A program made the position numbers and the translations under genes. A model generated the notes under the pieces. The model saw only the letters and a list, made by a program, of their open reading frames with translations. It was not told the origin of the DNA and did no database searches. Below are positions 17,701 to 61,120 of a DNA stretch of 64,000 nt, piece after piece (the first letter of the stretch is position 1; each line of letters starts with the position of its first letter). The stretch is from Marchantia polymorpha subsp. ruderalis (Eukaryota > Streptophyta > Marchantiopsida > Marchantiales > Marchantiaceae). Location: positions 9,426,501 through 9,490,500 of the forward strand of contig AP031353.1 in assembly GCA_037833965.1 (NCBI GenBank). Direction: 5' to 3'.

Positions 17701-17704
17701 CCTG

Positions 17705-18055: not shown

Positions 18056-18056
18056 A

Positions 18057-20454: not shown

Positions 20455-21165
20455 TTGTCACCAAAGAAACTAGTAAATCACAAGATTAAAGTGACACGTA
20501 GTAGTACGCCAACTTGCAAAGCTCCATATCGTTTGACTTCAAACAAATTGAAAGTATGCAAAGCTCAAGTGGAGTAGATGTTGAGCAATGGATTCATTCA
20601 ACCAAGTGTTTCACTTTATGGAGCTCCAGTGCTCTTTGTGAAGAAGAAACATAGATCCATGAAACTATGCATTGACTACTGGGAAATGAATCAAGAAATG
20701 GTGAAAAATAAATATCTATTAGCTCGTATGGATGATTTGTTTGATTAACTTCAAGGAGCAAAGTATTTCATCAAGCTAGATTTGAGAAGCGGCTACAATC
20801 AAATTTGAATTGCAGATGAAGATGTACATAAGACAGCTTTTTGTACTAAGTATGGTCACTTTGAATATCTAGTGATGTCTTTTGATCTCACTAATGCACC
20901 AGCTACATTCATGGGATTGATGAACAATATTTTTTGTCCATATTTAGATAAATCTATCATTGTATTTCTAGATGATATACTGGTGTATAGCAAAACTTTG
21001 ACTTATCATAGAGGTCATTTACGAGAGGTACTTCAAGTTTTGAGGGACAATCAATTGTATACCAAAGCTTCAAAATTTGAATTTGGCAAATCAGAAATAG
21101 ATTACTTGGATCACATAGTTACAACCACAGGAATTCAAGTTGATAATGTGCTATTACAAAATAAA
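20455..21165 (+). pseudogene. Reverse transcriptase fragment, Ty3/gypsy
   Basis: The polymerase fingers and palm are recognisable through FLDDILVYS at about 20970. In-frame stops are TAG 20575-20577, TAA 20746-20748 and TGA 20806-20808. By family comparison the TAA stands where FDQLQG has Gln (CAA) and the TGA where NQIRIA has Arg (CGA), so both are C-to-T changes; the TAG fits CAG. CIDYREMN has become CIDYWEMN and MPFGLT has become MSFDLT, also transitions. Homology ends near 21165. Confidence 0.88.
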
Positions 21166-21170
21166 ATAAA

Positions 21171-24100: not shown

Positions 24101-25223
24101 GTTCAGGTCTGAGTTAAAAGTTTTTAAATATTTTTTTCTTGAATATGCTACTTATATGAATAAAAAATATATATTAAAGTAATATTAATTTCAGGTTTTT
24201 TCTAATAGAGATGTTTTATTTTAATGGAAAAAATTACTGATAGATTAAGTAATTTATAACGTTGATAATAATCTGTTTCAAATACATTTGAAAAATATTG
24301 TTCATTACGATTTTTATTACATTAAAAAAAAATATGCAAGAGTATGTGATTTTAAACCTCGAAAAAGTTGAGAAGCAAGAGATAATTGATGCTACTTTCT
24401 ATAAAACATCAAACAATCAATATTAAGCAAAGTAATATACTATATATCTTCTTATATATCTAATTTAAAATCTTGAAAGCTATGAAATAATGACCAATCT
24501 GTTATTATTAGAAGGTAATGACATTGTTAAAGGGAAAAAATTGAAAATTATTAGATCTTGGAAAAAGAACTGATTTTTTATATAATATAACTTAGATGTG
24601 TGAAATCAAATTTGATTAACATGTTATTATAGAAAGACATATTCAATCACTTGAGTTCAATGAGACTTCACAATTAATATAACATATTGAAAATTAACTC
24701 ATTGTCAATTGCGAGTAAACATAAAAGATGAAAAATTGATCACAAGAAACTTTATACAACTATAGTTGTATCATAGTAGTACAATAAAAAAGGTGTGATT
24801 TTTTGAGTTAATTATATATTGATTAATCTTTCTACAAATTGATTAATCTTTTAACTTGTATTATATACTAGATCAATTAAATACTGCTACATTATATTGT
24901 ATAAAACAATTAGAAAAATTATATGACACAATTTTGAAGCTTTGCCACAAACGAGCAAAAATAATTAGATTTGTTAACTTCTTAAATACTTATATGATCT
25001 TAGCAATCTTAGATGAAATGATGAAAACATTTGAATTTGCATAATGCAGTTTCAATACATTCATGTGTTTTTATCAAATTTTATGATGATAATTTGATTG
25101 TATTATCTTAGTTTTAAACATGGATGATATGTTTATTTTGCTTAGTAGCAATTAAATCATGAAAGCTTCAAATTCAATTGAGTAATGATGTTTGGATGAA
25201 AACTCAAGTCAAGGTTAAAATAA
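21171..25223. other. AT-rich block, middle part; no gene
   Basis: About 4 kb of very AT-rich DNA with homopolymer runs and TA repeats (for example 22310-22326). There are only short open frames and no recognisable family. Probably transposon remains decayed past recognition. Confidence 0.5.
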
Positions 25224-25326
25224 TTTATGTCATATATATTTCTTGATTTCTGAGTACCATCCTTGTGCAGGGGCCACACTAATCTTCTCTGCATCATTTC
25301 AACTTTATTGTATTGTTTCAAATGAC
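25224..25326 (-). pseudogene. U6 snRNA pseudogene, full length, decayed
   Basis: Read on the minus strand, the core GCAGAGAAGATTAG then TGTGGCCCCTGCACAAGGAT matches the conserved centre of U6 (ACAGAGAAGATTAGCATGGC then CCCTGCGCAAGGAT). The flanks align too: a GTC at the 5' end, ACAATAAAGTTGAAATGATG for the CGATAAAATTGGAACGATA region, and AAATCAAGAAAT for AAATCGAGAAAT at the 3' end. Most differences are transitions. The invariant ACAGAGA box reads GCAGAGA and the catalytic AGC triad reads AGT. No upstream sequence element or TATA box is visible at the usual distance, so this is probably a retro-copy. Confidence 0.85.
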
Positions 25327-25329
25327 TAT

Positions 25330-26700
25330 AATCATTATGATATGAAAGTTTTGGTTAGATTAATTTAAGAATATGAAATAAAAGCTTGCAAAATTCAATA
25401 TGGCAAATGCAAAGTAAGTTGATATTTCACTTGACATCAATTCTAAGGTTTCAAATGCTCAATGATTTATCACAAATGTAAAAAAAAGAAGCCATGTTCT
25501 AATTTCTATATAGTAAATCTATCGGAAGCATTGTAAAACAGATCATTAATTAATTTATATTAATATAAATATATACATAAAATTTTAATATAAAATTTAA
25601 GATTATTTTACAAACATCACATTCATATGATTTGAATTAAAATGAAAATGAATATTAAAATTTTGTAATCATCGTTTTGTTACAAAATGAGGAAATGATT
25701 TGACATGATTTAAGGAGTTTTAAGTTTTACAATAATTAAATACTAAATAAAATATAAGATTAGTAATAAATTTAATTAATTTGTTAAAAATTAATATAAT
25801 TAAATTCATGTATTTTGAAATTTATTTTCAAAATAAAAATGAAATAAAGTAACATATATATATATATATAACTTTGTATAGCGGTTTTTCTAGTTTGTCT
25901 TGCACATTGTACAACATTGGATGACCACACTCATGTCCATGGATTTTGGTTGAGATTATCTTTTCATATGTAGAACATAGGTGGTTATTATTTCCTAGTG
26001 GGTTTTAATGAACATAATTTTCAAATGGGTACAAACACATGCCCATCAATATTGCTTGAGACTTGGATATGTGAGTGATAGTTTGAACTTTAGCCATCTT
26101 GTTTTCTCGCTCCCCACATCGGACGGACACGACACCATGAGAGTTGGAATACAATCATAAACATAATGTGAATGTCAAAATCTAGCTACATGAAGATCTG
26201 CACTTGACTTAGGAAAAAACTATCAATACCCCAAAAAATGCCAAAAGTCTCGGGAGAGACTTTTGGATGAATGACTAATTTGATAATCATGGATGGTTGT
26301 TAATGACTATGATTTGAAGTAAAATGTTGGACTCAATAAATAAATAAATAAATATTACATAAAAGAATCCATGTGCTTCAATTTCTACAATTCTTTGTTA
26401 TTTTATAGAAATGTATTATGAAAATAAATATTAATTAGATTAGAATAGAATAAAAATACTACAAAATGATATTTTTTTTAAAAAATACGTTGAATAAAAT
26501 AATTTTTAGGTTGATAATCAATAGGTATTGATTATTTCTTCTAGACAAGAGGTTTGGAGAATCATTTAAAATTACTTTATAAAATAAACCAAACAAGAAA
26601 CTAGGAAATTTACAGACTTTGATAATAATAATAATTAGCTTTGGTATAATTATGAACATTGATATTACATATATTAATATTGAGTAAATTTCCAAGGCTT
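25330..26700. other. AT-rich block, last part; no gene
   Basis: A TA repeat lies at about 25857-25870. A less AT-rich stretch at 25880-26260 contains CCCCACATCGGACGGACACG near 26114, similar to motifs in some LTRs, and a hairpin at 26242-26267. No coding sequence is recognisable. Confidence 0.4.
26242..26267. repeat. Small inverted repeat, 11-bp arms
   Basis: CCAAAAGTCTC, the loop GGGA, then GAGACTTTTGG. Perfect arms. Function unknown. Confidence 0.7.
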
Positions 26701-28338
26701 TTAGTTAACACTTAATACTTACGCAGGATGATGCTTTACAAGTTGTCAAGTCCTGAACGAAATAGTAGTCAAGTTTCCCCACGATGTATTGAGGTGGATT
26801 GAAGCCACCGTCACCATCCAGCCAGTCATATACGGCAAGGTACCGTGAGGTGGGTTGTGCCATGACACGCAAGTCCCAAAACGGGCTTCTACACTTGCTT
26901 CTTTGTGCTCATTAAACACCAGTAGCCACATCATACGTTGAAAAGTCTTCTCAAGGAGAAGTAACTGAATTACCGGTCTGTAATTTGGAAATAGTTTTCA
27001 ACCAGCAATTGACGCGTCTCGGTTTCACCTCAGTAACTGCGTCATTGCCCCAAGCGCAAATATGAGGCCTGTTGAGTATAACGTGGGGACAAAGGCGGAG
27101 ATGCATGTAGTGCAAATTACCATTCGCTTTCCTACCACGTTACGTGGCTTTCACTCTCTTACCAGCATGGTCATGCGGGTCCCTTTAATGTACTTTATTG
27201 AGAGACAAAGGAAAAAGGCAGAATGACTCTGTCATTTTACTCCCCCACCTCTCCTTACCTAGAGGAAAGGTGGCTGGTCTGGGAGCCTAGGGCACATCTC
27301 AGTTAATTTGTAGACAATTAGTCATAATAATAAGTAGTGAAGGATAATTACTAATTAATAATTAAAAATCAGTTTTTAAATGATTTGTTTAATGATTCCG
27401 TTAAAGACAATGAAAACCAAGCAGTAATGAAGTACAATATTTCGCTGAAAGTGATGGTAACGTACTCCATCAGATGCATAAGGTGAATGATTTCTCCTTA
27501 AAGAAGTTGGTGACATCAAAACATCTATCTCATTTATGAAAAAATGTGGTTTTCGGTCTACGATGCTGTCATTGCAGCTTCAATCGCAGGGTCTGCCGTG
27601 TATTCGGAGTCTCCAAATTTAGATCTTGACGTAAAGGTTGACGATTATTGTACCCAGCAGAAGGATAGTAAATAAACAGGAAGTTCAGATGTTGGAGATT
27701 TTTTCCCGGGCTGTTGTTTAACGGTCTAATCCGGTTACAACTCAAGTATCACACGTCGTCTTAATTAAATGTCCACTCACTTCTCATAAATACGAACTTT
27801 CGTTTAGGAGCATGGGATACGTAATCTCAACTGTGAGTGACCGTTCGACCGGATGGTCAAGTTCATCACCGGGCCTGAAACCGAGGGAGCGCAAGGAAAG
27901 AGATCTCATTGGCGAGAGGGCAGTGGGTTCGCCCATGCCAAGGAATCTAGGACTCGGGGTTTCCCCTAAGGCATGGAATATCGCCAATCAGGTGTTTAGG
28001 GACGGGAAGCCCGAGGCAGCCGCAAGAGCCGTTGATAGATCCGCAGATGCAAAAGCGGCAGGCGGACGTGGCACAAGGTGGCACGTGGGGCCAAGAGAAG
28101 AGCAGAGAGAAGAGCATTTGAAATCTCAAGGCTCGGCGACGAAGGGCGGATTGACCTTCAGTCTCGGATCGATTGAGCGATTGAGCGATCAATCATTGGA
28201 CCAATCCGTCGATCTGATACTTTCGTGCCTTCCCAGCCGCTTCTGAGACGAAGATCGATCCGTTCCTGTCGGGGGGATTTCACCATTGAATGTATTTCGT
28301 TACCCGTGCATTGAGAAACGACAACATCCACCAGAACC
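26701..28338. other. Intergenic and upstream region of the OTU gene
   Basis: Mixed composition up to about 27.8 kb, then GC-richer. The minus-strand frame at 26746-26934 and the plus-strand frame at 27812-28246 have no recognisable domain. The part from about 27.8 kb to 28338 is probably promoter and 5' UTR of the deubiquitinase gene, whose ATG has the context ACCATGG. Confidence 0.4.
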
Positions 28339-33647: not shown

Positions 33648-36600
33648 ATGTTGGGAGCAATTCGAAGACGCGTTGGCGGGCCTCAGTCTCTGCTCAACAC
33701 TGTCTTGGTTCGTTTGTCGTCCATTTTTTCCCCGGGATTTCGTTTCGCTTCTTTCTTTACGGTCCCCGTGGTGTTGTCCGCGGGGTTCGTTTGTAGGGTT
33801 TTCGTGATGGAGTCAATTGATGGTTTTAATTGTCTTGTCGATAGATCAGATCGATCCGGAAGTTTTGTGTGAATGTTAGGGTTGTTTTTTCTTGTGAGAT
33901 CCCGCATGCTTGTGGAATGTCGTCCATTTTGGTGAAGGTGATCGGTTTAAGTTTCGTGGTCGATGGTTGCTGTCATTCGCACCCGTAGGGCTGGTCTTCG
34001 AGTTCATCTGTGGCATGCAAGTAGGTCGTCGGAGCTGGTTTGTTTCGAATTGTGCCGTGCTAGGTAGCGGATGCGAAGACTATATTCTGAATTTTATAAG
34101 TTTCCCTTACTTGGATGTGCAGAAATGTAAAAGTGGGTTGGAGCCCACAGCTGCTGCTTGGACTAGTGGTGGCCGAAGAAATGCTTCCGAGGTATGTGGC
34201 GGTGGAGGATGAGAGGAACGGAGTATAATTAACAGAATAATGTAGCTGAAATTGAAGATCTTTGCAATCGAACACGTGCTAAGTAGCAGTAGCTGCAGCT
34301 AAGAAGGATCTAATCAGCCAGTTCGAGGTCGGTACCGGAAGTTTAACCGTCGATAGTGGGAAGTTGGTTCACAGAAAAATATGAATCATCCCCAGACAAG
34401 CACTTGCATGAGGAACCGAAGATGACCCGTTGTTTGTCTGCCACTTCGCAAGTGCAGCCGCAGATTCTGTCCACCTGTTTCAGGCCGGACTTCGCGCCCC
34501 CCGCTGCTAGTTCACCTCCTAGGTCAGGAACGGTATGCCGCCTCCTTGTGTAGATTCCTCACGACTATGACCTTAAATAAACCAGGAGCTGACACGAAGC
34601 GAAGGGTAGTGTTACTCTTCAGAAACTTTTCTGTCCATAGTATGTTTTTGGAACCTAAAACTTCTCAGCGACATATAGACGATCCACGGTATCCCAGCAA
34701 AATTTTACAGATTCGGTAGAATTGAGATTCTACATTGACGCACAGATCTTTAGAAATAGCTTATTTTCCACTTTTCAACAATCTATGATACATCCTTGTC
34801 CTTTATGGCTGGCCAGTGGCCATGGTGACGGTTACTGGGTAGATATGAAAGAAATATTCGAGTTTGGTCCAAATTGGCGGTCCTCTGCCATACTTAACTT
34901 GGGAGTTGCCACTTTTTGTATCTTGGATTGAGAGAGGGAGTAAAAGGATTCGGACCTGCCTTCAAAGAGTTGAAAAAAGGATCACATGACAGCTGCATAA
35001 CACGTAGATTAAACACGGGCTTTTGATTTGTTCGTTTATTCTTTCACACTCAGGAACTAATCTTTGATTCAGTTCCTTCTAATCTTTAAGCTTTAACCAA
35101 GCAGTTAGTCTATTTCGATGTTACCCTGAATCACCTTGTTTTCTTTGTAGCCTTGTCGTCGAATTGTTTATAAGTTTTAGTCACTGGTTTCAACAGATGA
35201 CTGTGAGAGATGCCCTCAATTCCGCAATCGATGAAGAGATGGCTGCTGATTCCAAGGTCTTCATTATCGGAGAAGAGGTAAGAATAATAAATCTTCTGAG
35301 ACATGATTGTCGATATCTTTCATGTGTGGACTATCTAGATGTGAACAAATCGACGCGTGTTCTACTGTTTTTGAAGTTGTCGATTGTTACTCATGAGGAT
35401 TGCGCCGTCACCTGTGCCTAAGCTTACCAGGCGTTGATTTAAAATGGTCCAAATTATACTTAGTGGTTACTTTCTGCATGTATAAAGCAGGTTTAATGAT
35501 TGTGAAGATCGATCAATGTTTCAAGTGATGAACTGATTGTCAAATGTGTGATTTGACCTTGTCTTCGGAGTTCAGGTCGGAGAATATCAAGGAGCGTACA
35601 AGGTAAGCTCTGGACTATCTTACTTTTAGTAGTCCTGATTGCAGCTGGCGTTTACTTCAGAAAATTTACTTGGATCATGAATTGCCGTAGGAGTTGTGCG
35701 GGCTGTGGCTTCGCTGTGTCGAAAAAAATTGCGGAATACCTCTTTGCCTTATATCTGACCGAAGTCGGTGTTGAATCTCATATCCTTTCTGCTTGGTTTG
35801 CAGGTCACTAAGGGACTTTTGCAAAAGTTTGGTCCCGATAGAGTTCTTGATACTCCCATTACCGAGGTAAGAGTTCTGAACCCCTCAAGTACCTTGTAAC
35901 CTGAGCATAATAGCTGACCTAAATACTGCTGAGTAGCTCCTCAAATGACTCTCAATACGTGTAGTTTCTCAGTATCAGTACAGATATACTCTGCAAAGCT
36001 CCTTTAGTTAGCATATATCTCCTTTCTATGATGATTTTGTTCGGGGTCTTTTTTTCCTTCCTCGCTTCGCGTTCTTTACATTTGAGTTGAAGTTGGTCAT
36101 AGTTACTCTTTGTCCAACACGTTTCTAATCATAAGCCATAGTTCAGATAAAAAATGTACGTGACCGAAGTCCTTTGCCAGTTGTGAACAGCTATTTACAC
36201 GTCTTTTGTTTGTGAATCCACTACTTTACTACGTGACTTGATATACTACATGAGACTTCTATGCTCACTTTGATCAGGCCTATATTATTTTTACTAGATC
36301 GATTAGGTTGACACATAGAGGCTTCAGACTTTCTGATTTGTTTATCTGTATTGTTGCAGGCTGGATTCACAGGAATTGGTGTAGGATCCGCTTTTTATGG
36401 ACTGAAACCGATTGTCGAGTTTATGACATTCAATTTTGCTATGCAGGTCTGATCATTCACAATGGAACTCGTACCAAATTTGTTTCCTTCTCTTTGTTGA
36501 GGTTGGAGTTTTTTGTTATTATCTTTGTGATGACTACACACCCAGTACTAAGCAAGAATTGTCGATGGTGCAGGCGATTGACCATATCATCAATTCTGCT

Positions 36601-38903
36601 GCAAAGACACATTATATGTCTGGTGGTAAAATCGAAGTTCCAATTGTCTTCAGAGGTCCTAACGGAGCAGCCGCCGGTGTGGCTGCACAGCACTCTCAGG
36701 TAGTTTGCAGTCTCTTCTGGGAGTCCTGTCTTGTGTTGCTGGAGACGTTTCTGAAGCTTATTTTCCTGTATAGTTTGGAGTGTGTATGTCACATTATCTT
36801 CGATTGACGGAGCGGTCTATGCATGATCCTTTCAGTGCTTTGCAGCCTGGTATGGCGCATGCCCAGGTTTGAAGGTTCTGGCCCCATACAATGCCGAAGA
36901 TGCTCGAGGTCTTCTCAAGGCTGCCATCCGTGACCCTGACCCTGTCGTCTTCCTAGAAAACGAACTCATGTATGTATGCTCTATATTTTAGAAACGTGCG
37001 ATCTTGGAAAAATTTGTTTTATCGTACTGGGTTTTAGACTGAAAACTCATACTTCCTAGTAAGGGTAGGCTTAGGGTATATTAGATTGATTTGTGTTCGA
37101 ATAGTTGTCCAAGTTCGAACTCCTAAAGTTGATGGGTTACCACGCGCGATGCTGTAGGTACGGTGAAACTTTTACCGTGTCCGACGAAGTTCTGGATCCT
37201 AGTTTTACTCTTCCCATCGGCAAAGCGAAGGTAGAATTGTGTACCTTTGTCGTTGTGTTTTCTCTAATGAATTGCATCGTCAGTGAACTACGTTATAAAC
37301 ATGGTTCATTATGTTTTCAAGTTCACATCTTTATTGATATTAGACACAAGTACAATGAGGTAGTATGGATTTTCTGGTTGACAGGTTGAGAGGCAGGGTA
37401 CCGATTTGACAATGACAGCGTTTTCGAAAATGGTTGGAACTTGCCTCAAGGTGAGATTTTGGAACGCATCCTTGCTCTTTCTGTATTTCAAACAACAAGC
37501 CGCTTATTGAGCCATAAGAGTCTTGAGTCACGTAATCTAGATATTATCTTGTTTTAGTATCTTGTTCGTACGATTTGTAGCTATATTGGCAAGTAAAATG
37601 CTGGATGTCGAGCCCTCCCTTTGAACAGCTTAACCATCTTTCGAAGAAGTCGTCAGACGTTTGATGTAGTCGCAATTTTGCGAGCGGGACTGTTGGTTCC
37701 TTGGCTAGTGTGCTCTTCTTGAACTCCTTACTGAAGTGAATGAGTTTTGATGTTCAGGCAGCAGAGGAGCTGGCGAAGGAGGGCATTAGTGTTGAGGTGG
37801 GGATTCCTCACGTTGACTATTTATTGAGATGTGTTTACAGCGTGATTGCGGAGTTGTTAGTTCTACGTTTTTATCCTATACTAGTAGTGTCGTGTTTGCC
37901 CGAATTAGTTCTGAGTGTTATGTGTATTTGGTTTTCTCAAGTTGGTTAGTATTTTTGTTTCTAAATTCGTCAGTAACACGAAGTTGTCTCCAGGTCATCA
38001 ATCTTCGATCGATCCGGCCGCTAGATAGAGCAACTATTAATGCATCTGTCAGAAAGACATCCCGACTTTTGACTGTGGAAGAAGGCTGGCCCCAGCATGG
38101 TGTCGGAGCCGAAATCTGGTAATGGTTGTGGAGACTTTGATAATTTAGCTTCTTGTTTCGACCACTTTCATGCCGGGCAGATATCTTGACTTATTACATT
38201 TGTATTGTTTTCGAAAAATTTATTTTGGATTGCCATCGAATCCCTCACGTCAGCTTAGGCTTCAAGGTCTTTGATGATGATGTGGTTTTGTCACTGGGGT
38301 CCGTCAGGTGGTATAGCAATGATAACCATATCAGTTTTCCCGGTACATGTTACAAACTTTACTGCTTTACTTTGTACTGATACTAATGTCGATGGTTTGA
38401 TCGGTAAAAACAGTGCCAGTGTGGTGGAGCAAAGTTTTGAATATTTGGATGCACCAATTGAGAGGATTTGTGGAGCCGATGTCCCCATGCCATATGCTGC
38501 AAACCTTGAGCGTTTAGCCGTTCCCCAGGTGAGATTTGTTCGTTCCTGTTGTTTGGTGTTTAGTTTCCTTTTCCCACGCTTGTTGATGGAAGTAAGAATA
38601 GATAAATTCCAAATTTTGTGTATTGATGCTTATGGTTATGAGGCTTGAGAATGAAGCTTATGGAGAAAATGCCAATATAACGCTTTTTGCTCCACGGTTA
38701 TCTCAAGACAGATCCTCAAGGAGAAGAAGGCAACATTGTGACTTAAATATCTGTCCTGTTTGTGCTTGAGATGAATTTGCCGCTCATTCCTTCCCGTTGT
38801 CTTACTGTTTTTCTTCCAAAATGTCCGTATGCAGTTGGAGGACATTATTCGTGCCGCCAAACGAGTATGCTACAGATCTACACAGCAGAGGGCTGCTGCG
38901 TAA
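33648..38903 (+). CDS. Pyruvate dehydrogenase E1 component subunit beta, mitochondrial
   Basis: With E1 alpha it forms the thiamine-diphosphate heterotetramer that decarboxylates pyruvate and passes the acetyl group to E2 lipoamide in the mitochondrial matrix. Fourteen coding exons: 33648-33707, 34123-34191, 35197-35277, 35576-35602, 35804-35866, 36360-36446, 36574-36699, 36836-36969, 37158-37230, 37385-37450, 37758-37796, 37994-38118, 38414-38528, 38835-38903. They sum to 1134 bases and 377 residues. Residues 1-43 ([20 protein letters not shown] and on) are a basic presequence. The mature part begins [20 protein letters not shown]. Conserved blocks are [23 protein letters not shown] with Glu100 near the cofactor, [40 protein letters not shown] with His169, [43 protein letters not shown] and [17 protein letters not shown]. 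It matches the mitochondrial (PDB1/MAB1) rather than the plastid form. The C-terminus STQQRAAA is slightly longer than in Arabidopsis. Intact. Confidence 0.95.
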
Positions 38904-43720: not shown

Positions 43721-46009
43721 AAAACGTTTTTATCTTCTTATTAACAGTAAGTATATATATATATTTATATTTATATTATAATCTCAAAATAAGAATGTAC
43801 AATACAAATACAAATGAGCTCACTTATGTCAAAACCTTTCATGTACCCACTACATACAAAACAGGTTTAAGACGCAAGCATTAAACTTCCATATGAGCAA
43901 TATGTACTTCAAGAAATGACAATATGGACTTTATTGAACAGGTCATGCAATAAATTTAATCATGAATATGTTCAATTTTTGCCTTCAAACCTGCTGAATA
44001 TTGTATCTAATTCATGACCAATTATCTATTATCGATTGATTCCACTAACACACAATGAACAATACAAACTTTAATGTTTTGGCTTTGATCAGTATATACT
44101 TATTAACTATGTATATGTGTATGTATATTTATTTTTTCAAAAACAATTGAAAAATAACATATTTTTAAAAAATTGACCCAAAATTTATAGTTTATAAATT
44201 TTATATAATCAGAATCATTACTTTGAAAAAAAATGAAAAAATGAAAATTTTTTCCTATTAATAGTTTTCAAATATTATATTGATTGAATATGTTTGACTA
44301 TTTTCTGAAATTGTAAACATTCATAATGAACGTATATGTATTTATTCTTTTTGACATAAATTCATTTATGTTGACTAACATGATAGTAACACCATTTTTG
44401 ATAATTGATATATATAACAGTTTTTTTTCATAAATCTATTAATCTATATTTTTTCACTTTAACAATTAATCTTTTACACGACTATCATCATTCTTGAAAA
44501 GTAAATTCCTAAACAAATAATATGCAAATCTAAGTTGCCCTCAAAGACTAAAAAAATTGATGTTAAAATTTTAATATTGATTTTATAATTAGCGTCTTTT
44601 AATTTTTTAATATATTTATTTATTTAAATTCAATTGATAAAAAAAGAGGAATTCAGTTAATTAAAATTTTTTGGTGATTTATAATAATATACATGATATC
44701 ATCAGTTGTTATAATCCTTGCATATTTTTTTTTATAACCTTTTGAACACACACAAGAATCTTCTCTTAGTGAATATATACACATAACGAATTCAGGCAAA
44801 ACTTTAGAGCAAACTTGAGAAAAAAAATATCATATGTTTATGTTGATTTCATAGAAAAATTGTGACATCTATCTATAAGTTACATGTATAGTTTTTATAA
44901 TTATATGGTTGATATCTTTTGACTTCAATGTTAATTTGCATTACTCAAATCAATTACATGAACGTTCCAATTGCATTTTGTGATTTGCATCCACTTGATC
45001 ACATCCCTAAAGAATGCAATTTAAAGAATTAAATGACTTTATTGTATATCAATATGTTTGTTCAATTAGCACATGATAAAATGATTGATTAATTTAATAC
45101 TCTTTTTTTGCAATCATTGAATTTTTATTCTGATGAATTTTGTATCACATTTTTAATCTATAAAAAAACCGCACCTTATTTAGTGTTATAATCACGACAC
45201 TCAAACATTTGTTTATTGCATTTAATCACATATTTATCTCAGTCAACCTTCAAATAATAGCTAAATTATTGAAATTTTTATCTTTTAATAATATCATTCA
45301 AATGAATGTTATATTAAAATTATTTTACAACGTTATCGTAAATGCATCACATATTATAATATTTAAATTATCTAGTTGATGATTGATATCATACATTTAA
45401 GTCATTTCTGTTTTTATAAACTTCAATATTTTCATTCATGTATTTTAACATGAATTGATAATGATTGATATTTTTTGAAATTTTTTATTATAAATAATTA
45501 AGCTCAGAATTGAGTTTTAAATTGAACTTTATGTTTCTTATGTTAGATCATATTGATTTGTTCTTCATTTTTAGAAGCAAGAATTAATTCATCTAATCCC
45601 ACTTGATCAATGAAGAATTTATTCTTGATTTTCACTTTACAAACTATTTTTAAAAAGTAGGGTTCAAATTTCACATTATGCATATGATTTTAAGCATTTG
45701 AAGTGATATTCTAGTTTTAAATTGTAATTTAATTTAAAAATATATTAACATACATATTAATATTTATATCTAAAAAAATATAAATTCTATGTAATATTTA
45801 TTTGAAATTTATATCAAATATGTTGCATTGCTTGCACTTGATGAAAACATATTTTGTTCAAATGAAGTGCCATATCTTATTACATATAGTTTGAAAATTT
45901 GAATGTTAGACTTGTTGGCATGCATAGTATAAATTGAGGTTTTTTATTTTGTATAAAATATTTTTATATTTATAAGTATGTTTTTATCAATTTTTATTAT
46001 TTCAACAAG

Positions 46010-46045
<36 letters not shown>

Positions 46046-49000
46046 GTGTGTTTAATATTGATATTGTCTAGAATAAATTTGTATAAAAAATTTGATTTCT
46101 AGGATTCAAATAAATTTTTTTTATTTTATCTTATATACATACAAAATTTTTACATGATTTTATTCTAAATTGTTTTAAAGAATTCTTTTATTAATAGATT
46201 GATACATGAATAAATATTAGTTAAATTTAATGAACATTGTGACATACTTTTATTTTGTCTAAATTCATATAATGAAAAATTTTCAAATATTTTGATTAAA
46301 AAATAATATATGCTAAATCTTTACTTAAATTGTTTTTGGAAAAAATATCATTATTTCTTGAAAATGAAAATGAAAATAATATAAGACAAAAAACATAATC
46401 TTATGTTATGTGTAGATTGCATGTTTTAATCATCATTAATTTTAAATTTTTTTTCAATTTAGATGCATGTTAGCATTTAAAATAAAATAAAATTTCAATG
46501 CAAGATTAACATTTATTTATTTGAAAATTAAAGATAATAAAATATATATAACTTTGTAGCATTTTAAAAATATGCATAAACTTACAAAATTAAATCTATA
46601 TATTTTTAGTTTTAATTTTAATTTTTTGATTAATTAAATTTAATTTATAATGAATATTCAGATGTTTTTCGTTTTGAAGATCTTGTGCGTATATGTAACA
46701 ATCTTTACATCCATGTTTATATGAAACAATGGGTGATATGAACATTTGCACCTTGCCATTGATTGTCTTGAAACTAGTTATTATCAACTCATTCTTTAGT
46801 TAGATGTGTATATCGTTGGCAAAAATTATTCACAAAGCTTTCTTCTGTATTGCTACGTAAGGAAGAATTTCTTGTCAAACATGGGTTAGATTTTTGTTAC
46901 CGGCATCTGTCACCACCTAGATGAAACGATTCCGACCTCCTCTGGTATTCGTACCATAATCAATTGCACAATCTACAAGTGTTTCGCGATAAATTCCCTA
47001 AAATCTATTGCACATCTAGCAATCATCGATAGAATTGTACATCCCACAACCATCTATGTAGTCTAAGCTCTTCATGTACAAGAGCTCTTTACTTGACTTC
47101 TCTAATGTAGAATTTCCATTTGGTCTGCAATCCAATCGATGTAAAATATAAACAAGGTTTTTCATAAATTACATGTATCAATCATCATTAATGTTTGAAT
47201 ATATTTTATGCAATCATGTTAGCATTTAAAATAATAACATTAATTTCAATTTAGGATTAAAAATTTAGAGTTTTTTGAATAATTATAAAAAATATTTTTT
47301 AAATAAATCAATTAAATATTATAAAAAATTTCAAAAATTGTGGCAAATCAATTATAACTATATTTTAGATTTATATGTTTTGTATTTTAAAATTGATGTG
47401 ATATATTAACATATGTAATATATTATACTAATTAATTGAAAATAAATACAAAGTTTTGTTCCTAACAAGAATTACATCATTCTTCTTTGTTTATTATTAT
47501 TTTTAAAGTATTATATAATCATAATTAATTGATTATTATTTTATTTATTATTTCATAAAATTATATATATTTATATAAAATATATGATATAAAATAATAT
47601 TTTTATTAATATCAATGTAAATATATTATACAAATTCAAAATTATTAAAGAAGAATTATTGCAAATTATTAAATATTTGATTTTTTAGAGTAATGTGAAT
47701 GTTGTTTTAATTGGTGCTATCAAATATAAATATAAATAAATAATTTGTATCGTAGATAACAACAAAATATATTCTAATGGTATTTATTAAATTTATAAAC
47801 ACCAATTGTAGATATATTCATTATATTTATATTTCTCAAATTAAATTATTTTCAAAATGTATTGAAATATAAACATGATATTTTTATTTTTAAAAATTAT
47901 CTATGCACTTCATAAATAGTAATAATACCAATATAATATTAATTTTATGTATTTATATGAATGAATACTATGCAAAACTTGATTGAATGAAACAAGTATA
48001 AATCAATAATTTTAAAAATATAAGACGTGAAAATATAAATAAATATAGTAATAATTTATTTTTATTTTTTTCCTGTTTGATGCATAATTTATTTATATGA
48101 AAAAAAGTGTAAGCTAAATTAATAGTTTAAATTTGTATTTTCACAAAAAAATTTATAGACACTTTAAATCTGCATGGTATTAGTTGAAGTGGGTGTAAAG
48201 TGACTTTAAAGCTAATATTGATTACGCCTTACTTATAGAAAATATAAAGATAAAAATAGTATTTTGGCTGTGCAAATTGCATGTTATACAATAAATTGAA
48301 AACTATTGTTTCAATATCATAATCAGCACTGGATCTATTATTCATATTGCTCGATTTGGAGACAAAATATATTTTAAATCTAAAGAAATTTAATTGGTTT
48401 TTAAAATTTTATGTTTTCATAGTAGTTTTTAATTTATAAGCAAAAATTATCTCATCTTTGTTTTAAATTGATTTTTTTTAATTTAATTGGTATACTAATA
48501 CTCTCAATAGTGGTGAAAATTTATGGTACAATCTGCTTATATAAAATTTTATTTGATAATAATTTGAAATATTTATTAATTTTGCAAGATTTATTATGTA
48601 TGTTTTATTATTTTTCATGAATTTTAAGATAATCTTTTTTGCAGCTGCAAATAAATAGTTTGAATATATAATATCAAAGATTTAAAGCAGTAAAAATTAT
48701 ATTGATAATTATAAATGATAATAAATAAAATTTTTATTAGATTATATATGAAAATTTAAATCATATAAACATTCCAGTATATAAAATATTCTTATATTAT
48801 ATGTTTTAATCATTTAGTCAAGTCTTGAAATGACTCTGGTTAATTTAATTAATTAGTTTATCGTTGTATAAAAAAACTCAATGAGATTTTAAATGTCACA
48901 ATCGTTTGTTTTTTTTTGTCAACTTCTTGTTCTAGCTTTTTTTATTGTTTTATGTGTATGTAGAAACTTGTAATCCGTAAAATTCAAGTTGCAAATCCAG

Positions 49001-51750
49001 GTAAAACCTTGTAGGTTTTATCTAATTGAAGCTTGCTTGTGCGAAAAAAAGCTATTCACCAAATAAATCCTATGACTAGCTGCGCCACTGCGAGTACATT
49101 CTGGATATTAAATTTTTTTCACTTGCAGAGGGGTATGATACCGTTTAGTATAAAATGGTTGACACCTAGAGTTTTATTTATATCTTCTTTCAAATAAGAT
49201 GAAAAAAATTTAGCTTTAGAATATTTCAATTTAAAAATTAAATATTGAGAATTTGGATTAGATTTGATTCAAATTTTTCACAAAAAATGTATGACAATTG
49301 ATATGATGATGATGATTTTAATTATGTAATTTGAACTTAAAAACTTAATATAAATCCAACAAGAGTATATTAACAACTTTGCAAATCCTTACCCGAGAAA
49401 AAAATCAGACTACAAAGATTTAACACCAAGTTGTAATGATGTATGATCCATGTATTATTTGCATTGGTTGTGTGTATGAATACGTTTTTTGTGATTTAAA
49501 TTTTATAAATTCATATACATTGAATTAATAAATATTAAACATGATGAGTCAATGTTAAATCTATTCAAAAAATTATAGAAATATAATCGTATTTGAAAAT
49601 TATCAAAATTATTTAAATAATTTTTTTAAATAAATATTTGAAAATTTATCCATTTCTATTTTTTTGATTTTTAATCATTACATTTAATAATTTTTTAGTT
49701 TTTGATAAATAATTTTTAAGGAAATTTTGGTGGAATGAAATATGTAATTTTAAATATTAACATAAATAAATATTCTAAAAATATTAAATATTATAATTAT
49801 TTTTATACACATGTTTATATTTTTAGGATTCAGAATATATACAACGAATTTATTTAATAATTAAAAATTATATCTCATAAATGAAAATTTATATGTTATA
49901 AGTAGTTTTACATTTTCTTCAGAATTAACTCTATAATATAATATTATTCTTATTATTGAATATTTGGTCAAATTAAATTGCTTGGAAAAATAAACAAATA
50001 ACACTTGAAAAAAATCTTTCTAATGCAATAAGCATTTGAAGTTCTTTATTTAATTCACACTTTAAAGTTTTGCATATAAAGATTTTCAATAAAATATGAA
50101 ATTCTATTGTTTGCTGTTTATTTTTTAGAATTTATGAAGTATATCTCTTCTTGGAACATTCATTTGGATAAATTGTAATATTAAGTTGAAATGTGAATGG
50201 TGTATGTTAGATATCAGAAATATATGTTTTTATATATTATATGAATGATATATATTATATCATATGAAAGCAAAAATGAAAATTTGAATTAATCTTTACT
50301 GTATATCATAATTGCTAGATGTTGAAAAATATTATTTTCTTGTTGCAAAGACTTTGTATTAAGTTTTCTGGAAAAAACTTTGATCATAGTCTATCTTGCA
50401 AGTGTGTTCTTAGTATCATGCAGTTCTCTTTTTCTTCTATACAGTTATTCTCAAAACCTAATGAATCAAAAACTAAGAACAAGGAAAGATGATTCAACTA
50501 TTATTTTTTAGTTTTTTTTTTCCATTTTTGATATACTCTTGTTGGACTTCTTATATGTTTTCATGTTCAGATCACATGTAAATCTATTAAAATCATCATC
50601 ATGCAATATCTGTCAAAATGATATTAATTCTCATGAAAAATTTGATTGTAATCTAAACCCTAATTCTCAATTTTTGAGAGTTACATTCAAATGTTGAAAA
50701 TCCAATATATCTTCATCTTATTTGAAAAAGATTCAAATACAATTTGAAGGTTGAAATTTTTTTTTGCAAGATAGAATGCAACAGTCTGTAGTTTGTATTG
50801 AAATGATAATAATAATTGAAACCAAGATTTTTTATCAATTACATTCTGGTAAATTTCAAGATAAAAATTTGATAAAAATTCATCTATTTAGGATAAATAA
50901 ATTTGTTTAGAGTTGATGAGAGGCATGTGTGAAGCTTTTTGAATACATATATCTGCCGATTGCTCTGTAATGTAAAGTAAGATCATAAAATTATATAAAC
51001 TACATAATATAAGTTATATAAAGAGGGAACAAATTGTCTAACTATATTGAAAATCAACCTTAATCACACACATTTATAAAAATTATACAATATAAATCAA
51101 AATTCTTATATGATATTTTTCATACATGAATTTTGAACAAGAGTTGACCAGCTTTATTTTGCATATCATTGTTTTAATGCGGGAGTTCTAACAGCTTTAA
51201 TCAACTATATTAAGATATGATATTAAGTAAAATAAGTATATATTCACTCCATGCAGCAATCGGAAAGGTGTTTGTGCATTCATTTACTCATCATTTTTAT
51301 CAATGAGTAAATCAATGTACTTACGACAACAAGTGTTTTGGCATCTCATAAGTTTTGTACTACGTAAATTTTTGATTCAATTCTCATCCAAAATTATATA
51401 CTGAAAACTTATCAATGTTTAACTTCTAGAGATTGAACAACACAGTGGCTCTTGAAAGCCTTACAAGATATACTATCACCTAATCTAAAACATTGTCATG
51501 CGAAAATACTTGAAATTGATATGTCTTGGTTGAGTAATTGTTTTATGGCATAACACACACACACACCTAATATATATAACTATTTATTTATTTTCACAAA
51601 TGAAAGTCTTCAAGTCTTCACCAAAAGCTTGTGATATAGGTACTATGGTGTAGTAAATGATTCAGATCAAACACAAGTTTACACAATTTGTGCATGAGTT
51701 ATCGCTTCTGAATTACAGGTGTGTTGTAGGAGGTTTATTTTTCGGAATTC
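43720..51750. other. Second AT-rich block, about 8 kb; no gene
   Basis: Extremely AT-rich with homopolymer runs and TA repeats (46012-46042), and almost no open frame above 60 codons. A less AT-rich island lies at about 46800-47150 and a smaller one at 48960-49130. I cannot recognise any protein or RNA gene. By analogy with the first block it is probably old transposon DNA decayed by C-to-T change. Confidence 0.5.
46800..47150. other. Less AT-rich island within the AT-rich block
   Basis: Contrasts sharply in composition with both sides and may be a younger insertion or a slower-decaying fragment. Minus-strand translation gives short runs such as FREFIAKHL and LPYVAIQKKAL, broken by stops. 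I could not assign a family or find ends. Confidence 0.35.
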
Positions 51751-51818
51751 AATATTAATCTGTTGTCCACATACACTAGGCAACTGGAAGTCGGATTCCT
51801 ATAAACAATAGGACAAAA

Positions 51819-52447
51819 TTATGCATAATCATTCATGGTTTTTGTACACATATGGTTCAGATGTAAGAAGTCGTGGAATAAAAGGCAATGCATCAGCAGT
51901 TGTTCGTTTTTCGAACTGCAAAGTTCAGCGAACACCTTGCATTCTGCTTGAAAGAGAGACTCGGATCCAGTTAGCCCGAATGAAGTAGTTTGGACTTCGG
52001 GTATGATTCCAAGTACTGAAGACTTGGTATGGAAGGCACTATTTTCAATTAATTTTCGAATCTGCAATTTGCAACACTTGGAGAGTTCTGTGGATGCACC
52101 GAGCACATACATTTTGCTCATGCAAGAACGAGGAATAAGTGCTCCAAACATGTGAAGTAATGTGAGCGTTGAAGCCACATGCCGTTCAACCTCTGTACAG
52201 TAAAAGCCAAGAGATCAGTGGTACAATTCGCGACCTTTACTGAAAGCTCGTAGTCGAAGTCTGGTATGACCGGGTGCATATTCTTTCCTCCTCGAGAGAT
52301 AACGTCCCCCTTGTCATCCACGATTGTGATAAAAGTCCCACAAAAGCAACTTTTGAAGCCCTTCTCTTCTCCTCTCACTGAAATTCTTCTCATGAGTACG
52401 TACTGCGCTGGCCCTTCTTGAAAACAGCGTACATGGCTTGAGGTCAA
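51819..52447 (-). CDS. Unrecognised open frames, possibly two exons of one gene
   Basis: Two overlapping minus-strand frames, 52447-52118 and 52178-51819, lie just outside the AT-rich block. The first reads FKSCFCGTFITIVDDKGDVI then HPVIPDFDYELSVKVANCTT, like a real soluble protein. The second includes KLIENSAFHTKSSVLGIIPE. I do not recognise a family, and neither frame has a clear start. Could be a small hypothetical gene, a decayed gene, or chance. Confidence 0.28.
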
Positions 52448-54995: not shown

Positions 54996-57569
54996 TTACA
55001 CTTATCGTTACCGTTAGCAGCTAAGAAGGCGAGGGTTCTATACTTAGCATGTTCCAGACGGACGTGGACTAGTTCACGCCAGTCGCGCTGGTCCCGCCGC
55101 GCTAAATGTGGCGCTCTCTCCCGTCCCTTGCTTCTCTGCCCCTATATACCGCAGGTCCCCAGACGCATGCAGGTCGGTCGTCGGCGGGTGTGATTATCCG
55201 CCCCGCGCCCGGCCAACCCGGGCGCGCCACGTTGCGGTGATGTCCCACATCGGGAATGATCCGGTCTATGGAGTTGCGGCTCTCGCTCGACCTCGGCTGG
55301 AATGTCTCGCCACGAGACCTACCCGCGTAGCTTTGCGGCAGGTAATGCCGCAGGTCCGGCTCTCGGCCGGGTGGCTGCGACGCGACATCCTCGTCGCGGC
55401 GGGGCGGTGCGCGTGGTGGGGTCGGGCTCGTGAGTCTCGTCACGTCCACGTACAGCGCGAAGGACACGACAGGCAGACAGAGCGGGCGACAGACTCAGAC
55501 TCTGAGGCGCAGGCTCGCAGAGAGTCTCAGACGAGAGACAGCAGAAGAAAGAAGAAGTTGCGATCCAGACATGAAGAAGGGAAAGAGAGAGAATGGCAGA
55601 CGGGCGCCAGTGGTAATGAGTGAGCCCGAGTTTGATTGAAAACGTGACTGGGAATTAAGCAGAGATAGGAGATGGGCCGAGCGAGATCCCAGAGATCCCA
55701 TCATTTGCACCGACTCAGAGGGACGGACCGAGAGAGGGGCCGATTTGTTGTACCAGGCGAGCCCATGGGGTGGACTACCAGTCGGCCCGGGTTCATTCGG
55801 GCCGGGCCCTTAATCCAATGGAACAGATTTTTTATTGGGGCCGGGCATTGGAAGCAAAGGGAATGGCAGACGGGAAGGAAGGGAGGAAGGAAAGGTGAAT
55901 GGTAAGAGGTGAGAGGGAGAGGGAGAGGTGGGTTGGGGAGGGGGAGGACGAGGAGGAGGAGGAAGTACATGGGCAACGCTTGGCAGTCAAAAGAGATATT
56001 TCATCGTTTTCAGGGAGATTCGACAGCAACGTCGATCACATGGCATGCAAAGAGGAGGAAATTACCAAGTCACAACGCGCTGTAAAATCCTGCTGGTGGT
56101 GGCCCCCGGCTCTCGAGGGAGGACGGACGGACGGGTATTTAACCTTGCCTCTCGCTTACCTCTCTCTCATCAATGACTGCTGCTGCTGCTGCCGCTGCTG
56201 ATAGCAGAGCCAGCAGCGATTTGGCTTTATCGCCAATCCCCGGGGAATGTTCAGCCCTCCCCCCACCCCTCTCACCCTCGCGTGTCGCCTCGAAACGTAG
56301 TGTAGTGTAGCTGTAGCAGCTGTGGCAGAAGCGGATGATGAACAAGACTCTGAAGACTCAGGCTCATCAGGCAGGATTCAGTAGTCCTAGCAATAGAAGA
56401 GAGGAAAATCTCGTAGACCCAGTACAGTGTAGGAAAATACAAAAGTCTGCACGCTGGCTGGGCCGGGGGCTGCTGCTGGCTGTGGAGCGAATGAGAAGGA
56501 TTGGAGATGGACAGAGGTGCAGAGCGAGGGATTGGCGAAGTTGGGGACCTCTCCTGCTTGCTTCCCTCTTCTCGTCTCTGCACAAGGCTTGGCCTGAGAG
56601 CCTGAGAGCCTGAGAGCCTGATACCTGTTTGCAGCTGGTGCTGCTGCTTCTGCTGCCGGTCGCTGGTGAGTGATGAGTGTTCTGCTCTCCTCAGGCTGCA
56701 TTGCTGCATGCGATGGTCCCGCCTCCCCGCCGCCCTCCTGCCGCTGGTTTCCCTGGCCCCCCCTCCCCTCCCCATCCCTTCTGCAGGGACGGGAGGGGCC
56801 GAGCGACGGGGACGAAACGGGAGTGGGAGTGGGAGGGGGAGGGCGAAGCCGACGGAGGCTGCGCTTGTCTTCCCGATGCGAAGCCGAGAAGGCAAGGAAT
56901 CGGGCCATGCGCTGTAAGACATGGACGGGACGATGCTCTCGTTCGGCCGCTTTGCGCTAGCTTGCTAGCTAGCTAGCGGAGCTGGCTGGCTGGCCGGGGC
57001 AGGGGCAGGGGCTTGGTGGTCGAGCGTAGTCTCCAGAGCGTAGAGCAGTGTACTGTGCTGGCTGGCTGTCTGCGCAGCGACCCTACTTATCTTACTCCTG
57101 TACGATATTGGCCCTCTGCAAGGCAAGGGAAGGGAAGGCAAGGCAAGGCAAGGGGAGGGGGGAACGGATGGAGACATGTGAGAGCGATATTTATTTGGGT
57201 GTCTATGTATCTATCCACTTCTCTCATTCTTAACAGCACCTCAACCCTCAGGTCCAGGAATAGTCAGTCAGTAGTCGGGAGAGCGTTCCGTAATAGAGCC
57301 AGGCGGCTTTCCTCTTTCCTTCAGTATCAGTCTCTCGCTCCCTCGCTCGCTCACTCACTCCCTCCCTCCCTCCCTTCCCTCCATCCCATCCCCCTCTGTC
57401 GCAGTCGGCAGTCGAGTCGGAATGAGGACTCGTGCCTTGCGCGGCCGCACGAAAGGCCGATGGCGGGTAAAGCAACCTCCCGTTGGTTCTCGGTCATCTT
57501 TTAGTGTGCGTGACTCTTCCGCATATTTCGAAGCGCTTGTTCCGCCTTGCACGTGGTATTGGCTCGACT

Positions 57570-57705
57570 CTCTCCTCTATCTATCATCTATCATCTCTCT
57601 CTCTCTCTCTCTCCTCTATCTATCTCTCACACTCTCTCTCTCTCTCGACTCTCTCTCTTTCTCTCTCGACTCTCTCCTCTATCTATCTGTCATCTCTCTC
57701 TCCCT
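57570..57705 (+). repeat. Pyrimidine-rich TC/TATC simple repeat
   Basis: Almost pure CTCT interspersed with CTATCTATC, including a repeated CGACTCTCTC-type unit near 57643 and 57667. It lies about 470 bases upstream of the MIR319 stem. Confidence 0.85.
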
Positions 57706-58169
57706 CTGTGGCTCACCTCAGATACAAGCGCGTCGTCTTCGTGTTCCTCTTCATAAGCTTGCAGTGGATTTCTGAAGAGTCTGTCGAGACACGGATGATT
57801 TGTCTTCTGTCGAGTCGAGCGGCGGCAGCAGCAGCATCAGAGGCAGCAGGCCACGCCACCATCATCTCATCAGTTGCAGCAGCAGCGGGGGACCTTGCGG
57901 TTGCGCCGCCCGTGTCGAATTCCGCGTCGATGCCACCCTTCGCTGCCGTTAGCCACTTTCAAATTCCCCGGCGGAGGTAGGTGATCGTCTGAGTCGGCGG
58001 TTTGGCTTCAATGCATCCATCGCTCGTTCAGTCGAGAATGCGATCCCTGAACTGTTTTCAGCATCCCGTGTCGTGTCGGGTCGACTCTTTCGTTCGCGCA
58101 CGGGTTTGGATTTACATTTTTTATTTTCTGGTGCGGGGGTCGTGTGAAGGAAGAAGTGGTGGGAGTGTA

Positions 58170-58365
58170 GAAAGAAGTTCGGATGGAACTCCCTTCAGTT
58201 CAACAGTGGGCTGTTTGGGTCCATATCTGCTGCTGAATCATTCATTCGCCCGTTCAATCCTACGAGAAAAGGATTGATTGGGCGTGTGATTGAGGCAGGA
58301 GCTGCTTTCGATCTGTACAATCCGTCCTTGGACTGAAGGGAGCTCCCTCTCAGGCTTCGTCTCGT
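58170..58365 (+). ncRNA. MIR319 microRNA precursor
   Basis: The conserved miR319 sequence TTGGACTGAAGGGAGCTCCC (then T) is at 58328-58348. Its partner GGAACTCCCTTCAGTTCAA lies on the 5' arm at 58185-58203 and pairs at about 19 of 21 positions, with one G-U pair and a C-A mismatch. The stem continues below (GAAG near 58174 with CTTC near 58355) and above. Near the loop CGCCCGTTCAATCCT (58247-58261) pairs with AGGATTGATTGGGCG (58269-58283), and GCTGCTGAATCATTCATT pairs with TGTGATTGAGGCAGGAGC. The mature RNA on the 3' arm of a long stem is the arrangement of the miR159/319 superfamily, which is cut loop-to-base. Family targets are MYB genes of the GAMYB type and, in flowering plants, TCP genes; I recall MYB and RKD targets in liverworts. 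Confidence 0.93.
58328..58348 (+). ncRNA. Mature miR319
   Basis: All 21 bases agree with the land-plant miR319 sequence as I know it. A one-base-shifted form starting CTTGGACTG at 58327 is equally possible, as annotated in some species. Confidence 0.92.
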
Positions 58366-61120
58366 CTCGACTCGTAGAAATGTGATTCCTCTCCCGATTG
58401 TTCTTCTGCGTTCCTCCCTCATCCACGCACGCACTCTCGCACGCACGCAGTCACTAGACTCTCGTTCAATTCTTGTCGACTTGAATGCATCCATCCATCC
58501 ACCCACACAATCACCTGTTAAATGAAAGCAAGTTTCTCCAGCCCCTTCTTTGTGCCGATGACTACCATCCCATCCAACTCCAAGAGAGAAAGGAAATGTG
58601 GGAGCATATCTTTCGAGGCACATCACATCGTCCCGCAGATCGATCGGTGCAGCATGATGTTTCGCAGGGTTGTCCTCGAACATTGATTCTGGGCGTGGCC
58701 GTCCAGCGACCGGTTTGGAGCATCATTTCGTAGGCAGGCAGGCAGGCATGGAGGAGGGGCGATATCTGCATGCTCTTCCTTCCACCAGTTTCAGCGAGCA
58801 CGTCTGAAGACACAAAAATGCAGACGCGTCCCTGGACCAGTGCACACACGGTATCTCAATCTCGAAATGTCGGTGTTATCAGCTGCAAACCCCAGGCTCT
58901 TGGCGTGATGCGAAACCTAGCACTGCTTGAATTCGCTTGGCTTGTGCCTCTGGGCGCGATGAGTGCATGTTTAGAACTTTCATGCAATGCTAGTGAGTGA
59001 GTGAGTGAGTGTGTGCGTGCCTGCTCGCTCTCCCGGAAGACCAGGTTTGGTCGTCGTCCGGTCACCTCGTCTGACCACCACGAGCTAGAAAATCTGGGGA
59101 CAGCTTGACTTTAATTGAGGTGGATCGGTGCCGGTTGGATTGCGCAAATGCTGCAGCTTTTGGACAGGTGGTCTCGGCGTCAACGCTCTGCCTGGGCTTG
59201 ACATCATTCCGCAGCCGATGAGGTTTCCGAATATGCCGACGAGGCGAGGATTATGATGAAATCTCGCTTTTTCCACAAAGCGGAGCTGCGAATGATTACG
59301 CCCGAGATCACTCCAACAGCGTCTACTCTTTGCCAACGAGGGAGAGGTAGTAAGTTTCACCATCATCGCACTGTGTCCTCGATTTCTGTCTGTCATACGT
59401 GTCTGCTCATGTTCAACTCGATGTCACGGTGCCGATAATATTCGACGACCCGTTCATCCTCGTGCTGATCTGAAAATTCAACAGCGCACGCTGGAATGGC
59501 GTCAGTCAGTTTCTGAAAGGAGGTTGTGATTTCCCAACTGTACAGGACAGAAGCTGCGGTGCGGTGGGGGCCGATAGGAAATGACTGGAAATGCTCCAAG
59601 GCAGACAGACAGCGGCGATTAAAGGCCGAGTCCGTACATGGCATCCGGCGACCATGATTCCCAGTAGTGGATTCTGGCGCTAACTTATATATCTTTCAGC
59701 TCAGCTCGGCTCAGCTCAGCTCAGCTCGGCTCGAGGTTGGTAGATGGCAGTACAAGCAGGTGGCCGAGCTGTAGGTGTTTGATGGAGAGAAGGTAGTGGA
59801 CTGGTCTGGACTGGACTGGACTGCCAGAGGCATATGTCGTAGTCGCAGTGAGTAATGTAGTGTTTGTGGGGGCGAATCCTCAGCAGCATTATAATTTATC
59901 TATCTATCTATATATCTATCTACATGGGAGAAACGCATACCGCTTTTGCGCTCAACTGAACTGAACCGAACTGAGCTTCCTTCCATAATGTGCACTGGAA
60001 AAGTGGTGGACGTTGTCTGCTGTACCGAAACCTTGCGGAGGATGAAACTACTGCATGCCGAAACGGGTCGATGATTTAAGAGTGGATCTGAAAAAGATCA
60101 TGTGTGCAGCAGGTCGTGTACACACTAAAGCATTTGTATACAGTAGTCTCTTAATGAAGGTATGTCTGTTGTCGGATCATCAGAGATATGACAGCAAAAA
60201 GCGTTCGCTTTACACAAGATTCTGCAGGAGAGAAGCATTTTTTTATTACATGATGTTGGAGTTTTCCAACGGCCGTAATCATGTCTGTCAAACTGCACCC
60301 GTCCGACTTCACCAGAAAATATCTCGGTTATCATTGAATTGATGTGACCGATGAAGGGTCACCCGACCACCGCCGCAACCACGTATATTTTCCAGAATTG
60401 ATCTACCACGGTCGACCACGATTGCACCACTCCCGAGTATCCAAATTCCATGGAATTGAACAATGCAGCGTTGGACGGATGATTCACGGTCAGCCTGAAC
60501 TGAAGTTCCACTTTGAGACTGATCTGTAGAAATTGCGCACGATTCATGTCACTCACATTGTTCCACCATACGGACAATTAGTAGACACATGCCTGACGTT
60601 TTGGGCTGGACGTCTTTGTATCTTTGTGTCTTTGAATCTTTTTGCTAATTGCGCCTGTAATGACAATGGCATCCGGATGTCAACACGTTTGGCATAGTTG
60701 CCAGCGCCAAGTTCGTTGTTGCTGAGGTGTGCAAGAATGGTGTTTGTAGTTTGTGGCCTATTGGACCACACGGATGGCAACTGTCAGCATCTCAAAGCGC
60801 ATTGCACTTGGACGAGGCCGAGTGTAGTTTGACACAGATCACGACAGAAGGCAACTATTCCGAACTGTGCATCCACAACACAGCATCGAGCTATGCCCCT
60901 GTCAAGTATCCACTTCACTGCGCTCCAGAATCTGAAATGCTGAGCGAACGGAAGTTATCTCGTTGAACACTGGTCACAGTCTACTCGCGGTGACAATGAG
61001 TTCAGACGTCTAGTATACTTCAAATACTTTAAGTGGTGAATAAATTATGAAGGAAGGTTCGAGGTGGGAGGAAGGGGGAAGGAAAAGATGGATTCGCAAG
61101 ACAGCGAAAAAGTTGTTGAA
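58366..61120. other. Downstream of MIR319; no recognised gene
   Basis: Simple repeats: GGCA near 58733-58748, GAGT near 58994-59010, CAGCTCAGCTCGG near 59698-59733 and TATC near 59897-59922. Minus-strand frames at 60359-60577 (KVELQFRLTVNHPS then NAALFNSMEF) and 60553-60780 look faintly like a beta-strand-rich LEA-2-type protein, but I cannot support a gene model. Confidence 0.35.

Follow-up and report, generated by a model that had tools for sequence, protein, structure and literature searches.

A canonical MIR319 locus in a 64-kb window of a Marchantia genome and a possible RKD-matching relative among diverged MIR319-like hairpins

The window analysed in this study is a 64-kb stretch of DNA (C4:9426501-9490500) belonging to a genome of 241.5 Mb in nine contigs. 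On the plus strand, the window contains a MIR319 precursor hairpin at 58174-58359, which was identified by cmscan against Rfam as a match to RF00638 with a score of 92.8 bits (gathering score, 74; E = 9.7e-19). This match covers the full length of the model (positions 1-196) and is the sole microRNA match at gathering scores in the 64-kb window. RF00638 bears the name MIR159, and we take the same family to cover miR319. The mature miR319, TTGGACTGAAGGGAGCTCCCT, is located on the 3p arm at 58328-58348 of the plus strand, where all 21 nt were found with 0 mismatches, exactly as claimed in a preliminary description of this DNA. When up to three mismatches were allowed, two matches to miR319 were detected in the window, as against an average of 0.01 in shuffled sequence; besides the mature sequence itself, the star arm matches on the opposite strand at 58183-58203. 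A form starting one base earlier, CTTGGACTGAAGGGAGCTCCC, corresponds to 58327-58347 of the plus strand and is the most-read form in the fern list contained in the consulted part of PMC5426797.

Folding of 58150-58380 (plus strand), which had been proposed as a check of the locus, paired the two arms and yielded -101 kcal/mol (z = -6.29), and none of 200 shuffles was as good. In the minimum free energy (MFE) fold, positions 16 and 20 of the mature sequence have no pairing partner, and the terminal loop lies at 58262-58269, leaving 58 nt between the loop and the start of the mature sequence. According to the pair table of this fold, the miR319* predicted from 2-nt 3' overhangs is GGAACTCCCTTCAGTTCAACA on the 5p arm (58185-58205, plus strand). 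A paired star strand is thus present, as had been described, whereas its earlier placement at 58183-58203 needs to be shifted by two bases in the 3' direction. Between the two arms, a loop-proximal long stem that includes the terminal loop extends over 58206-58327 (plus strand), as indicated by the fold and by covariation with homologous hairpins, and its length would fit the loop-to-base dicing of MIR319/MIR159 precursors. The locus therefore combines a 3p-arm mature sequence, a long foldback with a basal duplex and homology to MIR159/319 precursors. Together, the RF00638 score, the z value of the fold, the exact mature sequence and the paired star bear out the view that the MIR319 locus is complete.

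The surroundings of the hairpin had been regarded as a desert of protein-coding genes. The closest clear coding gene identified upstream encodes pyruvate dehydrogenase E1-beta. Of five ORFs compared at 35083-38645, four showed similarity to transketolase domains, which exceeded the Pfam cut-off in two cases, and the last of the five also matches solved E1-beta chains. Between 43 and 64 kb, 67 ORFs of 80 aa or longer were counted from stop to stop, and none of the 13 that were compared with Pfam, including one of the 24 downstream ORFs, reached the curated cut-off (best score, 12.8 bits versus a cut-off of 29.4). The desert is thus roughly supported, with E1-beta as the nearest clear upstream gene and a sample of 13 of the 67 ORFs. 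A CT-rich low-complexity stretch was detected by TRF upstream of the hairpin (57568-57707, plus strand). In addition, a putative splice donor, GGCGGAG/GTAGGTG (57970-57983, plus strand), is present as letters with its GT at 57977. The stricter donor consensus MAGGTRRGT does not match at 57977, and it occurs twice in the window versus a chance mean of 2.68. The MIR transcription units published for M. polymorpha number 23, of which seven contain an intron, and MIR319 is absent from the table of these units in the consulted part of PMC9291395.

Several other features were found in the window. An exon of an expansin gene is located at 5731-6357 on the minus strand (Expansin_C, 82.7 bits), and matches above the Rfam cut-off to U6 snRNA (25225-25334) and U4 snRNA (26949-27063) are present on the same strand. 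Because the U6 match differs from the consensus at many places, it may be a pseudogene. When examined in 2-kb steps, the window exhibits AT-rich blocks at 14001-26000 (23-36% GC) and 44001-52000 (20-28% GC) amid GC-richer DNA. A retroelement piece at 17636-21225 (RVT_1, 59.4 bits) is related to sequences that surround two of the diverged hairpins described below.

A genome-wide search with RF00638 generated 12 rows at E <=10, which represent both strands of five hairpins and two weak matches (E = 2.85 and 3.72). Only two of the 12 rows are above the gathering score, namely the window locus and C5:2362615-2362802 (92.4 bits). The same two loci are the only places in the whole genome where the 18-nt miR319 core was found with 0 mismatches, and the full 21 nt are present in both. 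When these two canonical loci were compared over 3 kb by BLAST, the only shared pieces were 23 and 24 bases long, both within the hairpin. The three further hairpins are under the cut-off (52-62 bits; E = 5.8e-11 to 2.3e-8). Weak RF00638 rows mean little, because weak matches, none above the cut-off, were also obtained in 7 of 14 prokaryote controls. In an alignment of the five homologous hairpins, 88.9% of the pairing cells are kept. Two-sided changes were found in 23 of 67 pairs, against an average of 10.6 in shuffles, none of 500 of which reached this number, and values of no more than 10 in slid controls, although the structure used for this covariation analysis was taken from the same five-hairpin alignment, which is a bias in its favour.

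The presence of three diverged MIR319-like hairpins below the Rfam cut-off in this genome raises the question of whether the window hairpin is likewise a decayed, or an unexpressed, copy of MIR319. We consider this very improbable, because its mature sequence is exact, its stem is long and its score (92.8 bits) is close to that of the other canonical locus (92.4 bits). Furthermore, the members of the canonical pair are alike at all 16 bases of a 16-base core but at only 85 of 148 aligned bases outside it, suggesting that selection kept the core. The idea that the minus strand is the functional precursor was rejected as less probable still: that strand does fold well (-78.1 kcal/mol, z = -4.45, 0 of 200 shuffles as good) and scores 68.3 bits with RF00638, as is expected for a near-palindromic foldback, but the plus strand is ahead in both fold and score (92.8 versus 68.3 bits) and is the one that contains the exact miR319.

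Genes of the target type in this genome are predicted to contain sites complementary to miR319. The search for RWP-RK sequences detected four places, and in one of them, an RKD-type gene at C4:4413822-4413965, the sequence TAGGGGCTCCCTTCCGTCCAA begins two bases past the TGA stop codon. The predicted pairing of miR319 with this 3' UTR site has a penalty of 4.5 and an energy of -34.4 kcal/mol, whereas no miR319 site at a penalty of <=6 was found in 3 kb of the other three RWP-RK loci. Among eight loci scanned for miR319 sites, the RKD-type gene was the best, and one other locus (L014) contains a candidate site with a penalty of 5.5. The position of the RKD site, after the stop codon, is the same as in MpRKD, in which, according to the consulted part of PMC10721683, a miR319 site is present just past the stop codon and degradome cleavage was found there. 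In PMC5426797, ferns are likewise reported to have a site in the RKD 3' UTR; such a site is supported by degradome data in Pellia, and moss has a candidate. At up to three mismatches, the 18-nt core has 137 places in the genome versus 107 for the reversed control. Target sites chosen by sequence alone are therefore weak evidence, and the RKD site rests on its published position.

A search for GAMYB-type sites yielded 21 places at up to three mismatches versus 11 for the reversed control. At two mismatches, only one place was found besides the two MIR319 loci, and it is situated in a coding exon of a MYB gene. This gene encodes two MYB repeats (94.2 bits), and the site, TGGAGCTCCCTTCAAGCCAA, falls within LELPSSQ. 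The pairing of miR319 with this GAMYB-like coding site is moderate (penalty 6). The R2R3-MYB gene containing the coding site probably corresponds to the MYB21 target described in the literature.

Taken together, these data make us highly confident that the window contains a canonical MIR319 gene from Marchantia, very probably of M. polymorpha and then one of the known MIR319a and MIR319b. The assignment to M. polymorpha is supported by the RKD site just past the stop codon and by the MpSAND and MpAPT primer pairs, two of the 11 pairs published in PMC4370483. All four primers match exactly, each forward primer at a single place, and the primer starts are 591 and 472 bases apart, respectively; these distances exceed the cDNA amplicons of 142 and 146 bases, as would be expected with introns. 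An origin from another Marchantia, such as M. paleacea, which would make the locus an orthologue of the studied gene, is improbable, although a close relative could share the primer matches. Since the genome contains two exact miR319 loci and two M. polymorpha genes have been named, the locus is most likely known. MIR319a and MIR319b of M. polymorpha have already been described and mutated, according to the consulted sections of PMC10721683, and the novelty implied in the preliminary description is thus not upheld. The mir319a, mir319b and double mutants form fewer gemma cups (PMC10721683, same sections). Published coordinates of MpMIR319a/b were not found in the literature searched, and the match rests on two loci versus two named genes. 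The shared features are the two canonical loci, the RKD site 3' of the stop codon and the R2R3-MYB site; no difference was found in this comparison with the published description. With the RF00638 precursors, the window locus shares the full-length match, whereas the loop region differs in the alignment. At the level of the small RNA, the Pellia sequence cttggactgaagggagctcccttt, given in the consulted part of PMC4368373, is identical to the window from 58327 over 22 bases and differs at the 23rd base. The Pleopeltis sequence CTTGGACTGAAGGGAGCTCCC is identical to the window from 58327 over 21 bases, and the fern list pairs it with an entry from a moss (PMC5426797).

By analogy with the family and on the basis of a published review, RNA polymerase II would make a primary RNA from the locus, and a Dicer-like enzyme would process the long foldback in steps of about 21 nt, starting at the loop and moving towards the base. 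miR319 loaded into Argonaute would then slice the mRNAs of RKD, in the 3' UTR, and of MYB21, whose complementary site lies in the coding region in this genome. With the window locus, one of the most ancient microRNA families of land plants has an anchor in the principal liverwort model, where the role of MIR319 has already been studied by knock-out.

The three diverged hairpins identified by the RF00638 search are located at C2:19244179-19244334, C2:19371931-19372116 and C5:13064825-13064971. They share the long foldback, the inner-stem motifs and the covarying pairs with canonical MIR319, whereas their scores (52-62 bits) are below the Rfam cut-off. The C2:19244179 and C5:13064825 copies are approximately 89-92% alike over a unit of approximately 2.4 kb, and the C2:19371931 copy contains the same unit with a gap of approximately 580 bases relative to C2:19244179. 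There are at least three copies, as a 901-base flank probe detected three places and a hairpin probe detected the same three loci. The C2:19371931 and C5:13064825 copies have direct repeats of 67-70 bases on both sides and are located in transposon-like DNA, which is related to positions 17.6-21.1 kb of the window. Direct repeats were also looked for around the C2:19244179 unit, and none were found. Two other explanations for the diverged copies were discarded. The gap of approximately 580 bases has no GT...AG ends by eye, so C2:19371931 does not appear to be a spliced retrocopy, and the three loci obtained with both probes, a lower bound, do not fit a high-copy transposon.

The hairpin at C2:19244179 scores 62.3 bits against a gathering score of 74, but its homology is clear (E = 5.8e-11). 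Its 3p arm, TTTGGACGGAAGGGAGTCTAAC, differs from canonical miR319 at the 3' end and retains 14 of the 16 core bases, and it shows an RKD-like position 7 and a poor fit to the MYB site. Outside the core, it is alike to the two canonical hairpins at only 71 of 147 or 75 of 148 bases (Fisher p = 0.003 and 0.007 for the core versus the remainder). Of the two core changes, one replaces C with T before the mature start and the other replaces T with G at position 7. Each of them matches RKD, and the new base at position 7 is paired because the star arm has changed in a compensating manner (alignment columns 40/178). By our own estimate, both core changes would be towards RKD by chance in approximately 1/9 of cases, which alone is modest evidence. 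Of the other two diverged copies, one is altered in the core once and the other twice. Private changes in the 44 arm columns number one for C2:19244179 and one and three for the other copies. Over the whole hairpin, it has 2 private changes in 156 positions versus 44 in 1311 in the flank, a difference that is not significant (Fisher p = 0.22).

The guide predicted from this hairpin, UUUGGACGGAAGGGAGUCUAA, pairs with the RKD 3' UTR site over 16 consecutive bases, with a penalty of 3.0 and -36.9 kcal/mol as compared with 4.5 and -34.4 kcal/mol for miR319. Its penalty with the MYB site is 10, as compared with 6 for miR319. If the diverged guide is started one base later, the RKD penalty becomes 4.0. 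The cut in RKD predicted for the diverged guide nearly coincides with that predicted for miR319. The 16-mer TTTGGACGGAAGGGAG occurs exactly at two places in the genome, one in the C2:19244179 hairpin and one antisense to the RKD site; at one mismatch, 9 places were found versus 4 for the reversed control.

From these sequence comparisons, we tentatively propose, as a possibility that we still regard as doubtful, that an old diverged MIR319 lineage exists besides MIR319a/b and that its least-decayed member, C2:19244179-19244334, is a predicted RKD-specialised microRNA. The core of the diverged guide was not found in the literature when searched in five spellings, the primary Marchantia lists (Lin 2016, Tsuzuki 2016) being outside the scope of this search. 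The diverged trio may be annotated under another name among the Marchantia precursors, of which there are 256 according to the consulted part of PMC9291395. The RKD-matching relative is the only part of the present findings with a claim to novelty, and it may be new. If the proposal is true, RKD, a regulator of germ cells and gemma cups, has a microRNA of its own that diverged from the regulator common to MYB and RKD. This would be an example, open to direct testing, of how targets are divided within a microRNA family in the germ-cell/gemma-cup pathway. As a separate observation, Table 1 in the available portion of PMC4368373 lists a rare 18-base 'miR159' read from Pellia, tttggattgaagggagct (mean count, 1.28), and this read and C2:19244179 share the T before the usual miR319 start.

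Finally, one miR390 locus was found on C8, with 20 of 21 bases matching and a further hairpin approximately 200 bases on. This arrangement, which also speaks for M. polymorpha, is similar to that of the MIR390-MIR11676 pair on chromosome 7 described in the consulted part of PMC9291395, with the second hairpin here placed by position and fold alone. C8 would correspond to the published chromosome 7 if C1 (5.6 Mb) is the sex chromosome. The location of MIR390 on C8 argues against contig numbers being equal to chromosome numbers, and four loci selected from Tak v6 coordinates on that assumption were left out of the analysis. The coordinate of MIR390 is 7.12 Mb here and 6.04 Mb in the published genome (PMC9291395, same part), a difference that would fit another Marchantia species but would also be accounted for by a longer assembly or a different strain. 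The miR390 sequence found here (L049, 1501-1521) ends in GCGTC, unlike the main miR390 form of the fern list, which is matched there to Arabidopsis and ends in GCGCC (PMC5426797, consulted part).
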